The position numbers were made by a program, and so were the translations under genes. The notes under the pieces are model-generated. The model searched no databases and was not told where the DNA came from. It was given only the letters and a program-made list of their open reading frames with translations. From Gammaproteobacteria bacterium Gsub (GTDB lineage Bacteria; Pseudomonadota; Gammaproteobacteria; PS1; Pseudothioglobaceae), in NCBI GenBank assembly GCA_002007405.1, contig JYIN01000004.1:1-64000 (forward strand): DNA of 64,000 nt, written 5' to 3'. How positions within the stretch are numbered: position 1 is the first letter of the stretch; each line of letters opens with the position of its first letter. Shown piece by piece: positions 22,841 to 28,487 of the stretch.

Positions 22841-23557
22841 ATGGGTTTTAAATATTTGAATAAAGGTCAAGATATTTTTGACGGCGATGATAGTGAAGAT
22901 GTATATGCTAATGAAGCACAACTCAAGGCACGATTAGAATATTTCCAGACCCAACTTAGGCAAATGAATGAGGCAACACCCATACCAGAGAGGATCAAAG
23001 TTTTATTAGAAATTGGGCGGATTCAGATTGAGCGTTATCAAGGTTCAGATGCTTGGGATAAGGCTTTTACTGCTTTTAATCTAGCACAAGAAGAGGAGTT
23101 GTGGGAGTTGGCAGTAGAGGCTTGCGATGTTTTATTTTTATCCTCAGGACCTGATTCTTTAGTAGCGTTGGGGCATGCTTTATGGTTGGGGGTAACTTTT
23201 CCAATTGACCCAGAAATTACAGTGGCAATGTTGCAACATTTGGTTGAAGAATCACCCGAAGGAGCGGATACATGTGCGGTAGCAGCAGCGGTAGCGCACT
23301 ACATTACCTCAATTCGTTGTAGTGCAGATGATGATTTAACTTTTTTTAGCGCACAAATGTTGGCAAGTGTGGCAGATAAACATTCACATGTAAGTGATCA
23401 ATCCACTTTTGATGTATGGTATAAAGCATTGGAGCTTGATAAACCAGAGGTTTTTTTGCAGAAATTATCAAATGCAATCAACCAACTAGTCAATGAAAAA
23501 TGGTGGATTGACCGAGATAAAATCAGAGCAAAGTTAGATCGTGAAACCAAGAGTTAA
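22841..23557 (+). CDS. Unrecognised helical repeat-like protein
   Basis: This 238-residue acidic protein has no signal peptide or membrane segment. The AAGGAG ribosome site upstream selects ATG 22841 (MGFKYLNKGQDIFDGDD); the in-frame ATG at 22796 lies within the previous gene. The middle (ERIKVLLEIGRIQIERYQGSDAWDKAFTAF split by short loops) looks like tetratricopeptide-type helix pairs. The 3' end overlaps trpF by 17 bases, implying cotranscription with tryptophan synthesis, but the function is unknown. Confidence 0.7.
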   Translation: MGFKYLNKGQDIFDGDDSEDVYANEAQLKARLEYFQTQLRQMNEATPIPERIKVLLEIGRIQIERYQGSDAWDKAFTAFNLAQEEELWELAVEACDVLFLSSGPDSLVALGHALWLGVTFPIDPEITVAMLQHLVEESPEGADTCAVAAAVAHYITSIRCSADDDLTFFSAQMLASVADKHSHVSDQSTFDVWYKALELDKPEVFLQKLSNAINQLVNEKWWIDRDKIRAKLDRETKS

Positions 23558-24152
23558 GGTTTGTGGCTTTACCCAAGCCGATAATGCGCGCCAAGCCGCA
23601 TTACTTGGCATTGATGCGGTTGGATTGGTATTTTACGAAAAATCCGCACGCAATGTGGACATTAGAAATGCAATAAAAATCATCAATGCCTTACCACCGT
23701 TTATTAACCGCGTAGGCTTGTTTGTGAATGCGAGCACTGATTTTATTGATACAGTTTTATCCACTGTGCCACTTGATACTTTGCAATTCCATGGCGACGA
23801 GCTGCCCGCTCAATGCGCCCAATATACGATGCCTTTTATCAAAGCTATACGCGTTAATCAAAATTGTAACCTTAAAAAAATGGCAGATGATTATCATCAG
23901 GCGAGTGGTTTGTTATTGGATACTCTTAATAAAAATATCTATGGTGGCACTGGCGAGCGATTTGATTGGTCTTTGGCAAAAGTTATGCTTGATTTGCCAA
24001 TTATCTTAGCAGGCGGGCTAAACCCTGAGACTGTGGAGGCAGCCATTAAACAGGTTAATCCTTATGCAGTAGATGTATCCAGCGGCGTTGAAAGCACTAA
24101 AGGGATTAAAGATATTGATAAAATCAAGCAGTTTTTAAGCAAAATTGGATAA
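23541..24152 (+). CDS. trpF: Phosphoribosylanthranilate isomerase
   Basis: TrpF catalyses the third step of the tryptophan branch (Amadori rearrangement of phosphoribosylanthranilate). It is 203 residues long and begins with GTG. The catalytic cysteine is in VKVCGFT, with FHGDE, the phosphate-binding LAGGLNPE segment and VDVSSGVES at the end. It overlaps the upstream gene by 17 bases. trpB lies on the same strand about 3.1 kb downstream, separated by the restriction-modification insertion. Confidence 0.95.
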   Translation: MKPRVKVCGFTQADNARQAALLGIDAVGLVFYEKSARNVDIRNAIKIINALPPFINRVGLFVNASTDFIDTVLSTVPLDTLQFHGDELPAQCAQYTMPFIKAIRVNQNCNLKKMADDYHQASGLLLDTLNKNIYGGTGERFDWSLAKVMLDLPIILAGGLNPETVEAAIKQVNPYAVDVSSGVESTKGIKDIDKIKQFLSKIG

Positions 24153-24213
24153 TTTCCTTAGGAAAACTAAGCCTATAAGCAACAACACCACGGTCTAAAA
24201 AATAGGGGAATCA

Positions 24214-24276
24214 TATACCTAAATCCGCAAAATTTATCGGCAGCGTTTCGCTGTCCGATAGAATGATTAGTTATGC
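24214..24276 (-). other. attC-like recombination site after the nuclease gene
   Basis: Read on the minus strand, GCATAAC (24276-24270) contains the TAA stop of the nuclease gene, as the R'' box does in many integron cassettes. It is followed by a spacer and the arms TATCGGACAGCG and CGCTGCCGATA around a 3-base loop (24260-24235). The pairing is perfect except for one unpaired base (the A after TATCGG), the extrahelical base typical of attC L boxes. A weak R' core (TTTAGGT, against GTTRRRY) lies at 24222-24216. It could instead be an ordinary terminator hairpin for this gene. Confidence 0.5.
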
Positions 24277-24906
24277 GTTTTTCTTATAGGCACTTCTTAT
24301 AATCTGCTCCAATATTCCGTCATTAAGCAAATATTTATCAAATTGCCTTATATTGTCATCTTTAATATGAAGTTGTCCTTCATTGCCATGATTTCCTCTG
24401 TGTTGACCTTTTGAATAAAGCGGATGATTAAGCACATCTTTACTGGGCATAACCCAAGTTAATATTTTGTCTCTAAATACTGCTACCCAAATAAAAGCAT
24501 CACAACATTTTGGCTTTAATTGCTGGAAATTCATTAAAAATTGTTGCTTAGTATTACTTGATAATGCTTTCATATATAAAGGCTCTTTAGAGTTTGCATC
24601 TACTGCTCTACTTGCCTTAACCTCTATTTTAATAGTATCTAGCATCAAATCATATTCTCCAGAATATTCTTTATCTTTTTCCTTATTAGGTTTTGATAAC
24701 TTAGGGCGTGCACCTATTAAATAGGTAATAGAAAAATTACTGAATGCCGCATTAGATAATGTAAAGACCCATAAATGAGGGTTTTGATTGATATACTCTT
24801 GCCTTATTTCTAAATATTGTTGAAACGACAGGTGATTGTCGTTAATAAAATGTTGCAATAAATATTCGTATTCATTAAATGGGAATACAGACTTATCTTT
24901 TTCCAC
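24271..24906 (-). CDS. Type II restriction endonuclease-like protein
   Basis: This 211-residue protein carries a PD-(D/E)xK nuclease signature: GEYD at 83-86 followed by IEVKAS at 94-99, giving D86, E95 and K97 as the likely metal and catalytic residues. It lies directly after an adenine methyltransferase gene on the same strand, 55 bases downstream, the normal layout of a type II restriction-modification pair. The recognition site cannot be inferred. Its stop codon lies inside the attC-like site. Codon use is rich in Lys and Asn, unlike the flanking trp genes. Confidence 0.78.
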   Translation of the reverse strand: MEKDKSVFPFNEYEYLLQHFINDNHLSFQQYLEIRQEYINQNPHLWVFTLSNAAFSNFSITYLIGARPKLSKPNKEKDKEYSGEYDLMLDTIKIEVKASRAVDANSKEPLYMKALSSNTKQQFLMNFQQLKPKCCDAFIWVAVFRDKILTWVMPSKDVLNHPLYSKGQHRGNHGNEGQLHIKDDNIRQFDKYLLNDGILEQIIRSAYKKNA

Positions 24907-24961
24907 TAAAGTGATAATTTTGGATAATTATTCTTCTCCGCCAAGAAAATTATCCAGTATT

Positions 24962-26542
24962 TTAAGTTTTAATTCTAAAAGTTCCATTATTTTTTTCTAT
25001 GTTTAAATATTTGTGAAAATCTTGTTCAGAGTAATGATTACTTTCTTTAAAGAAATGACTAAATATGGGTAATTTTTCTAAATCAGACCTTAAAACTTTA
25101 TGCGTTCTAAATAATTTTTTAAATAGCCAATTTATAATTTCTGTATTTAACAAAAATACTAATTGCTCCTCGCTTATTGCTAATCTATCATCAGCAAATA
25201 AACTATGCTTATCAAGGATAAGAAAATTAGCACTATTTAAAAAATAGCGTTGCTTATAATCAAGTGCAAAAATTAAGTTAGAGTTAATAAAACGATAAAC
25301 TATTTTTTTTTCAGCAAGAAATAGTTTTTTATTTGCCGTTTGTTGCAATTTTGAAAAATCATCCAAAATATAAAATTGTGCCTCTTTTATGCTTCCCCTC
25401 TCAATTTCTGTTCCTTTGTAAATGGGCTTATACCCATCATTTTTTTGTGTAACTAAATGTTTATCATTGTTACCAGTAACAATGCCCAAAGCCCATTTTG
25501 CTTTGCCCGATAGTGTTTGATGTGGATATGAATATAAATGAGAAATAACTCTTTCATCATTATCAGTAGCATCAAAATTTATAATATAGTTGGGATTTTT
25601 AATAAAACTTTTTTGTTTTCTTTTATATTTACCATTTTCTGTTCTACACTTAATGCTATTTAGGCGATTATTATTTTTAATGACAAAACTATATGCTTTG
25701 GTTTGCAATCCTGTAAATGGTTTATTATGGTCTATCAATTGAACAAGCGCCTTTTTTAATACCTCTTCTCTAACGGACTTAAAAGCAGTAATATTAAAAA
25801 AAGAATCAGGCAATAATACGCCCAACATACCATTTTTTTGTATTATTTTCAAACAAATTAAGACAAACAATGCTGATGAATCTACTTTAATACCATTGTT
25901 AAAATTATTTGCATAATTATTTTTTTGTTGATTGTTGAACTTATAGCCCCATGGTGGGTTAGTGAAAATAAAATCATATTTTTGAGTATGTTGTTGTTCT
26001 AATAAGTTAATAACTTTAATATTTTTTGGATATTGCCCAGTCATTTGATAAAAACGCATATTAGCAATTTTAATAGCAGTCTCATCAACATCAAAACCGT
26101 AAATATTATCAGGATTAAACCCTTTTTCTAATGCCTTCATCAAAAAATTACCCGTTCCACAACAAGGGTCTAAAAATGTATCGGTTGTTTTTAGGGTAGG
26201 CAAAACTAAAAACATGTCATCAATTACATTATTTGGTGTGTAATAAATTCCTTTTTTATTTTTTTCAGCAATACTTAATGATTGTTCGTATTGAATTGAA
26301 CCCTGGTTAGCATCAACAATATTATCAGCATTGAAAATAATATCAGGTTTATCAAAATGCTGTTTGTTTGCTCGTTTATTAAGTTTGCTTTTTCCTAAAA
26401 CATTTTTTTTAAAATTCTGGTAACTTTCTGTTGTAATAAAGCCGTTTTTATCAACTGATAAATCATCAGTTTTCAACCAATTTTTTAGTGTTGCACTAGA
26501 TATGTTTAATTCATTTATAACACTGTTAAATTCTATGCTCAT
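24962..26542 (-). CDS. N6-adenine DNA methyltransferase (type II, Eco57I/TaqI-like)
   Basis: The enzyme methylates adenine in the recognition site to protect host DNA. Numbered from ATG 26542, motif I DPCCGTG is at about 125-131 and motif IV NPPW at 195-198. A C-terminal region of about 200 residues resembles TaqI-type target recognition domains, and the first 30 residues (LNISSATLKNWLKTDDL) look like a DNA-binding helix-turn-helix. An in-frame start at 26638 would read through the attC-like hairpin, so the shorter form (526 residues) is preferred. No ribosome site is visible; a TATAAT box ends 6 bases before the ATG. Confidence 0.88.
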   Translation of the reverse strand: MSIEFNSVINELNISSATLKNWLKTDDLSVDKNGFITTESYQNFKKNVLGKSKLNKRANKQHFDKPDIIFNADNIVDANQGSIQYEQSLSIAEKNKKGIYYTPNNVIDDMFLVLPTLKTTDTFLDPCCGTGNFLMKALEKGFNPDNIYGFDVDETAIKIANMRFYQMTGQYPKNIKVINLLEQQHTQKYDFIFTNPPWGYKFNNQQKNNYANNFNNGIKVDSSALFVLICLKIIQKNGMLGVLLPDSFFNITAFKSVREEVLKKALVQLIDHNKPFTGLQTKAYSFVIKNNNRLNSIKCRTENGKYKRKQKSFIKNPNYIINFDATDNDERVISHLYSYPHQTLSGKAKWALGIVTGNNDKHLVTQKNDGYKPIYKGTEIERGSIKEAQFYILDDFSKLQQTANKKLFLAEKKIVYRFINSNLIFALDYKQRYFLNSANFLILDKHSLFADDRLAISEEQLVFLLNTEIINWLFKKLFRTHKVLRSDLEKLPIFSHFFKESNHYSEQDFHKYLNIEKNNGTFRIKT

Positions 26543-26548
26543 AACACG

Positions 26549-26554
26549 ATTATA
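26549..26554 (-). promoter_or_regulatory. Methylase promoter -10 box, leaderless arrangement
   Basis: On the minus strand GGGTATAAT ends 6 bases before the methylase ATG at 26542, so transcription would start near the A of the start codon. This promoter would lie inside the cassette-like unit, just after its GTTATGTC boundary, so the unit could express itself wherever it lands. Confidence 0.45.
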
Positions 26555-26566
26555 CCCAGTGTGATT

Positions 26567-26612
26567 GACATAACGCTTGAATTTACCTGCCGCATTAGCG
26601 CTCAGGTGCAGC
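26567..26612 (-). other. attC-like right end upstream of the methylase
   Basis: On the minus strand AATTCAAGCGTTATGTC (ending at 26567) closely follows the usual right end of integron attC sites, with core GTTATGT at 26574-26568. It is preceded by a hairpin whose arms ACCTG and CAGGT (plus inner CGC/GCG) enclose a 4-base loop at 26585-26607. The far-left R'' box was not found, so the site may be partial. In a cassette array this would be the junction at which the restriction-modification cassette begins. Confidence 0.5.
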
Positions 26613-26851
26613 AAAAGATATGGGGTCCGCAGCAACATTTTTAACGATACTATTTATTAGTAACGACATGGACCATTGTGCTGGTAGGTTAGCTAACTGT
26701 ATTTTAAAAGAAAAACAAAAAAGAAACATTTATCACAAAATCACTGCTGTTGATTGTCTTAATCATATTGCACAATAAACAACAATTTAAAAACTCTCTA
26801 ATTCCTAAGCAGACTAAGTAATGTCATACTAAGTTTTTGGAGTTTGTGGAT

Positions 26852-27191
26852 TTAGGTATAGCCCCCAAAAATAGTTCTTACCAATTGAGTAAAAACCTCC
26901 AAAGGGCTCTTATACCCCAAACACCTTAGGTCTGTTATTCATCAAATTGAACACCCTAACCATCTTATTGGTTAATTTAATGGCTTTATTTTTATCTTTT
27001 GTCTGCCACATGAGAGTCCGTAGGCTTTCGTGTGGTGGTATCCTTTTACCTGTATTATGCCTTAACTCAAGGCTCATTGTTGATACACTTTTGTTGATTG
27101 TTTTGGTAAGGCTTATTGATCAATTTTGTTGTTTTTTCATTAGCTAAATATGGTATCTTTTTGGTTTAGATAAATAGGTATATTTTTGCAT
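26852..27191 (-). pseudogene. IS30-family transposase remnant
   Basis: On the minus strand the N-terminal text MQKYTYLSKPKRYHI, then after stops SISLTKTINKSVSTMSLELR and NTGKR, matches the IS30 helix-turn-helix start. The C-terminal text NNRPK and, one frame over, CLGYKSPLEVFTQLVRTIF matches the IS30 end. The catalytic core is deleted and at least two stops and one frameshift are present, so it is inactive. The rest of the gap (26639-26851 and 27192-27281) shows no recognised gene. Confidence 0.82.
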
Positions 27192-27281
27192 TATCACTTT
27201 ATTAGTTGTCAGTTAGAAAAATCAACTCCTCTATTTGTTTTAAATCGTATTTGAATACATTAAATCAACTTTTTCAAGAAT

Positions 27282-28487
27282 ATGAATAATTACAATTTAC
27301 CAGATGATAGCGGTCATTTCGCACAATATGGCGGCATTTTCATCGCTGAAACCTTGATGATAGCAGTAAGCGAACTCAAAGAAGCCTACGAAAAATACCA
27401 AGACGATAGTGATTTTATTGCCGAATTTAAACACGACCTCAAACATTATGTCGGGCGTGAGACACCACTTTATCATGCCCAAAACCTTAGCCAAAAAATC
27501 TCAGGCGCACAAATTTATCTCAAACGCGAAGATTTAAACCACACTGGCGCACACAAAATTAATAACACTATTGGTCAGGCATTATTGGCAAAACGCATGG
27601 GCAAAACTCGTATTATTGCAGAGACTGGCGCTGGGCAACATGGCGTTGCCACAGCCACAGTGGCTGCGCGTTTGGGCTTGGAATGTGTGGTATATATGGG
27701 TGAGATTGATATGGCGCGTCAGGCGTTGAATGTGTTTCGCATGAAATTACTTGGTGCTAGTGTTATCCCCGTCAAATCTGGGTCAAAAACCTTAAAGGAT
27801 GCGCTTAACGAGGCAATGCGTGATTGGGTAACGAATATTGACAATACTTTTTATATTATTGGCACGGTAGCAGGTCCGCATCCGTATCCGATGATGGTGC
27901 GGGATTTTCAAAGTGTGATTGGCAAAGAGGCAAAAAGGCAATTTTCTAATCAGGCTGGCGGTTTGCCCGATGCTTTAGTCGCTTGTGTTGGTGGCGGTTC
28001 GAATGCAATTGGTTTGTTCTATCCATTTATTGATGATAAATCAGTGGCAATTTATGGTGTTGAGGCAGCAGGCTATGGCTTGGAAAAAGGTCCTACTGCC
28101 CATGCTGCCCCGCTTTGTGCTGGCTCTGTGGGCGTTTTGCATGGTAATCGCACTTATTTAATGGAAGATAAAAACGGTCAAATTATTGAAGGACATTCCA
28201 TTTCAGCAGGTTTGGATTACCCTGGTGTGGGTCCAGAACATGCTTATTTAAAAGATTCAGGTAGGGCAAACTATGTTGCCGTTACTGACGAAGAGGCCTT
28301 AGATGGATTTCATACTTTGACTAGGGTAGAGGGCATTTTACCCGCATTAGAATCCGCCCATGCAGTAGCATACGGTATGAAACTTGCCAAACAATTGGGC
28401 AAGAGCAAAAATATTATTATCAATCTTTCAGGCAGAGGTGATAAAGATATTCATACCGTAAGAGAGATTGAGGGCAATGGGCTTTAA
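27282..28487 (+). CDS. trpB: Tryptophan synthase beta subunit
   Basis: TrpB joins indole and serine to tryptophan using pyridoxal phosphate. The PLP lysine is in [13 protein letters not shown] near residue 90; EYMG-type segment and the GGGSNA phosphate-binding loop near 235 follow. It is 401 residues long. No trpA follows, although trpB and trpA are adjacent in most bacteria; trpA must be elsewhere or absent. No clear ribosome site is seen. Confidence 0.97.

Follow-up and report, generated by a model that had tools for sequence, protein, structure and literature searches.

How did a restriction-modification (R-M) gene pair come to lie between trpF (23541-24152, plus strand) and trpB (27282-28487, plus strand), and in the direction opposite to both? 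The question is raised by a window, that is the whole stretch of 64 kb analysed here, of a genome designated G000, whose contigs carry C-numbers. On the minus strand of this window a methyltransferase gene and a restriction endonuclease gene were confirmed to stand side by side between trpF and trpB. An earlier note on the same DNA had read them as an integron gene cassette that expresses itself on orphan attC sites, and had proposed a search for two flanking attC matches, for further copies of the cassette and of its attC family, and for an intact trpF-trpB junction in relatives. The analysis supports the cassette reading, and it is very likely that this cassette was carried to the trpF-trpB junction by transposition, inside an element bounded by inverted repeats.

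By gene content, the pair is a predicted type II R-M system (Table 1). The methyltransferase is of the N6-adenine type with a TaqI-like C-terminal domain, according to Pfam, and is intact in all three copies found, namely those of the window and of the genomes G012 and G066. Its dN/dS values among these copies are 0.11-0.13, and the value for the nuclease is 0.12 between the window and G012; selection has therefore kept both genes for most of their history. Comparison with the G012 homologue revealed a nonsense codon in the nuclease of the window, TAA at codon 20 (24930-24928). Homologues of the nuclease start at an ATG equivalent to 24987, and the premature TAA sits before a GTG at 24906, from which the protein could be restarted. 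Because the methyltransferase is well kept and the start of the nuclease is damaged, the system may today act mainly as a methyltransferase. A structure model of the nuclease (AlphaFold, two sequences) had a mean pLDDT of 36.6, too poor for use. Searches with the methylase returned no close relative in a plasmid collection and no match in a genome-contig collection.

Table 1. Features of the R-M locus and of the element that carries it (positions in the 64-kb window).
Feature	Position	Strand	Evidence
Left piece of transposase-type relic repeat (insertion target)	24162-24205	.	Copies of 88-93% identity at C10:55286 and C11:68907; alignment of the joined flanks runs across the junction
Target-site duplication AAAAATAG, left copy	24198-24205	.	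Exact match to 26867-26874; single copy in uninterrupted repeats
Left terminal inverted repeat GGGAATCATATACCTAAATCCGCAAA	24206-24231	+	Recurs inverted at 26843-26866; also ends the IS1595-type element on C10
attC that closes the R-M cassette; has R'' (GCATAAC), L'', L' and the extrahelical base, but its R' gave way to the inverted repeat	24216-24276	-	Covariance 20.5 bits, E 0.0071 (64 kb), E 0.00045 (4 kb); hairpin z -3.6
Predicted type II restriction endonuclease; frame open for 211 aa from the GTG at 24906	24271-24906	-	PADLOC REase_II PDLC03414, 277.5 bits; 75% aa identity to G012
Predicted type II adenine DNA methyltransferase, 526 aa, ATG at 26542	24962-26542	-	Pfam N6_Mtase and TaqI_C; PADLOC MTase_II PDLC03356, 512 bits; dN/dS ~0.12 vs two homologues
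TATAAT as a possible -10 element; no -35 to match	26549-26554	-	Sequence inspection; promoter scan
attC remainder (3' part) from the cassette that once preceded the pair; R' box GTTATGT kept, R'' degenerate or missing	26567-26623	-	Covariance 34.8 bits, E 6.7e-7 (64 kb)
Right terminal inverted repeat	26843-26866	-	Imperfect inverted form of GGGAATCATATACCTAAATCCGCAAA
Target-site duplication AAAAATAG, right copy	26867-26874	.	Exact match to left copy
Right piece of transposase-type relic repeat	26867-27200	.	Aligned to C11

The cassette reading was examined with an attC covariance model made from six sites, none of them in the window; G012 and the other contigs of G000 supplied three each. Over the 64 kb of the window, and up to an E value of 10, this model gave two matches, which lie on the minus strand on either side of the pair, as had been predicted. 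The nuclease stop TAA lies within GCATAAC on the minus strand and is followed by arms, TATCGGACAGCG and CGCTGCCGATA, that pair except for one base, just as the earlier note described; none of 200 shuffles folds as well. Both flanking sites are incomplete. Of the layout proposed after the nuclease, R'', L'', L' and the extrahelical base were recovered, but R' is missing; likewise, the right end of an attC announced upstream of the methylase ATG is there, as AATTCAAGCGTTATGTC with its R' box, but a proper R'' is not, and the fold of this second site is no better than that of shuffles. The cassette starts at this R' box, with GTTATGTC and the L' half just 5' of the methylase. In an alignment of 29 sites, taken from the window and three relatives, both-side changes were found in 10 of 17 pairs and the observed covariation score was reached by none of 500 shuffles, a score which is biased towards structure because the alignment was fitted to structure. 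A scan for the R''/R' pattern was too noisy to be used as an attC detector, and an Rfam search returned tRNAs and chance matches only.

The absence of an integrase, noticed earlier in the window, was borne out for the whole of G000, in which no match to IntI (TIGR02249) above the cut-off and no complete integron, with IntI and attI, were found. The genome holds 13 attC matches, seven on C13, two each on C5 and C6, one on C9 and the 26567-26623 site of the window, the weaker site at 24216-24276 being left out of this count. The C13 array (L144 3138-11541) includes two type II R-M pairs that each end in an attC, and after its last attC come a third methyltransferase and a neighbouring ORF for which PADLOC gave no match. 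It also contains two genes read as sulfotransferase-like and dioxygenase-like. As a CALIN is defined by two or more attC sites with no integrase close by, this array of seven is one.

What surrounds the cassette is of another kind. The stretch from 24206 to 26866 is an element of 2,661 bp that carries the fragment of a cassette array and has terminal inverted repeats and an 8-bp target duplication, as for a member of the IS1595 family, in which target duplications are 8 bp long. When the flanks of the window are joined with one copy of AAAAATAG, they align through the junction with uninterrupted repeats on C11 (89% over 134 aligned positions) and C10 (90% over 62). From the exact duplication and the match of the joined flanks to uninterrupted copies it follows that the element transposed into an old transposase-type relic. 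The last move of the pair into the trpF-trpB junction was very probably a transposition and not a cassette integration. An IS1595-type element with the same end motif lies at C10 28879-33716 (L163 1880-6717) and contains degenerate pieces of an IS1595 transposase, a methyltransferase of 724 aa and a specificity-like gene, with a small ORF ahead of its right end. No IS1595 transposase was detected inside 24206-26866, matches to PF12762 in G000 are confined to C7, C10 and C1, and no element combining these exact ends with an intact transposase was seen in that genome.

Some further observations concern elements of this type. The one at C7 63338-66957 (L164 1339-4958) is bounded by 34-nt inverted repeats (94%) and contains an intact IS1595 transposase of 308 aa as well as a DNA methyltransferase region; it is probably an active R-M transposon. 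A small conserved ORF (MTTLKQIEKALKEV...) recurs just inside the inverted-repeat end of the window and C10 type in three genomes (L157 426-452, L158 162-184 and L163 6687-6717). In the window element, an open stretch of 58 codons on the plus strand (26602-26775), which separates the attC part from the right inverted repeat, is possibly a gene remnant; its motif AKDMGSAA may be DgkA-like, and no Pfam match was obtained for it.

The following course of events is proposed. The pair would once have been moved through attC recombination by an integron integrase of the lineage, which is absent from G000. A fragment of an array, consisting of the R-M cassette with most of its attC, preceded by the 3' part of another attC, would then have been caught between IS1595-type inverted repeats. 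The resulting non-autonomous element would have transposed into the old transposase relic between trpF and trpB, duplicating 8 bp. Points against this course are the incompleteness of both attC sites in the window, one of them with an E value of only 0.0071, a copy in G066 with no clear attC, and the failure to find these ends together with an intact transposase in G000.

Could an integrase have delivered the cassette directly? In such a case an orphan cassette would have been placed at an attG-like site between trpF and trpB, and the inverted repeats would be a coincidence. Loot et al. (2024; cited in PMC12444791) reportedly described cassette insertion at attG sites in E. coli experiments, and single cassettes at scattered chromosomal sites are indeed common in the family under study, as a natural pattern. 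Sites matching attC were found in 21 of 60 sampled family genomes, belonging to 6 of 11 genera, and IntI above the cut-off in six of the 60, all attC-positive. Among 89 attC matches in eleven genomes, 39 are single and 50 have a neighbour on the same strand within 4 kb; the cassettes of the family are scattered over the chromosomes, often singly. The pfkB-mfd junction in genus g5 (L142 3953-4859 and relatives) looks like a site of repeated cassette insertion, putatively at a GTT-like sequence: an attC abuts the mfd stop in three genomes (G022, G015 and G056), a degenerate remnant is present in two (G042 and G075), and in G051 the site is empty, pfkB and mfd overlapping. However, this route is very improbable for the window copy in view of the exact 8-bp duplication, the repeats at both ends, which stand in inverted order and match those of another element, and the uninterrupted copies of the target. 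Moreover, its attC sites lose their outer halves at, or close to, the ends of the element and not at a G^TT point.

Two side observations on the cassettes of the family may be added. On inspection of 82 cassette ORFs, neither toxin-antitoxin nor R-M genes were evidently over-represented in single cassettes. A HicAB-type cassette beside an attC recurs in five genomes (L141, L202, L214, L217 and L228).

Outside the window, the attC family was found again in G000 (C13 and other contigs) and in relatives, and the cassette itself in relatives. In G012, which belongs to the same family, a homologous pair with 74-75% amino acid identity is part of an attC array, adjoining canonical attC sites such as ATATAAC...GAATTCAAGCGTTATGT, and an IntI of 414 bits is encoded on the same contig, 6-7 kb away. 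In G066, of another genus, the methylase and a decayed nuclease are located at the pfkB-mfd junction, where no clear attC is left; this nuclease has a stop in the same part as that of the window, the remainder being lost.

These copies bear on the idea that the pair is no cassette at all, being the passenger of an IS1595-type transposon with attC-like hairpins that are terminators or chance. Two other IS1595-type elements of G000 do carry DNA methyltransferase genes, and the idea is nonetheless still less probable than integration at an attG-like site. The covariance model has just these two matches in 64 kb, at the places and on the strand expected, no terminator-like site was called at the hairpins, the G012 pair stands in an attC array with no such inverted repeats nearby, and the R'' GCATAAC overlaps the nuclease stop in the window and in G012 alike. 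As for a decaying chromosomal R-M locus with no mobile history in the lineage, the nonsense codon of the window nuclease and the decayed nuclease of G066 would suit it, but it is hardly credible because the contexts differ, the cassette occupying three chromosomal contexts in three genera, and because trpF and trpB, intact as a junction in relatives as had been anticipated, abut in 19 of the 22 family genomes that have trpF. A TrpF search of genome contigs gave thiotrophic symbionts of Bathymodiolus and PS1-type MAGs as relatives. In several Bathymodiolus symbionts (L057, L058, L060 and L061), Fic-type or other genes, named by reading, lie between trpF and trpB; the junction therefore accepts insertions.

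The transposed cassette, then, is the preferred reading. The notion of a self-expressing unit needs correction. A promoter inside the unit had been suggested from the TATAAT (26554-26549), which does end six bases ahead of the methylase ATG, but a promoter scan of the region gave 16 promoter-like sites against 15.3 in shuffles, and the TATAAT is not among the 16. The proposed internal promoter is not better than chance, and expression of the pair is presumed. The attC sites in a genome with no IntI are confirmed, but the cassette is not a bare orphan, as it lies within the inverted-repeat element.

Parts of this arrangement have precedents. Clusters of attC sites with no integrase and single attC sites are recognised as CALIN and SALIN (PMC9024848; PMC12690207). 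The cassettes of G000, borne by attC sites in a genome with no IntI, resemble them, and the C13 array is a CALIN in the plain sense; at the window locus, in contrast, the fragment is enclosed in an inverted-repeat element and each of its attC sites is truncated. Phage-defence genes, including R-M genes, have been described on integron cassettes (PMC12444791 and works cited there: Getz, 2025; Kieffer, 2025). Type II R-M genes are the cargo here too, but in an integrase-less genome among relatives of SUP05 and Bathymodiolus symbionts. Class 1 integrons of Acinetobacter flanked by MITEs (PMC10969869) similarly show cassette DNA bounded by the inverted repeats of transposable elements; those are whole integrons with their cassettes, whereas the present case is one integrase-less cassette fragment between IS1595-type ends. 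In comparison with IS1595 transposons that carry passenger genes, the window element shares its ends with the C10 element and has the 8-bp duplication, but it has no transposase. The open literature yielded no description of an R-M cassette fragment that stands alone between ends of the IS1595 type in a genome with no integrase.

For the biology of the family, a tentative picture can be drawn, which we consider possible but somewhat less than an even bet: cassettes are scattered, many of them as singles or pairs, through genomes that mostly have no integrase, and IS1595-type transposons may serve as a second vehicle that keeps them moving once the integrase has gone. In this family, moreover, the insertion of cassettes outside arrays can be followed on natural data, including the recurrent pfkB-mfd site, occupied and empty within one genus. 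The locus between trpF and trpB shows one way in which a defence cassette survives the loss of its integrase, namely capture between the ends of a transposon.
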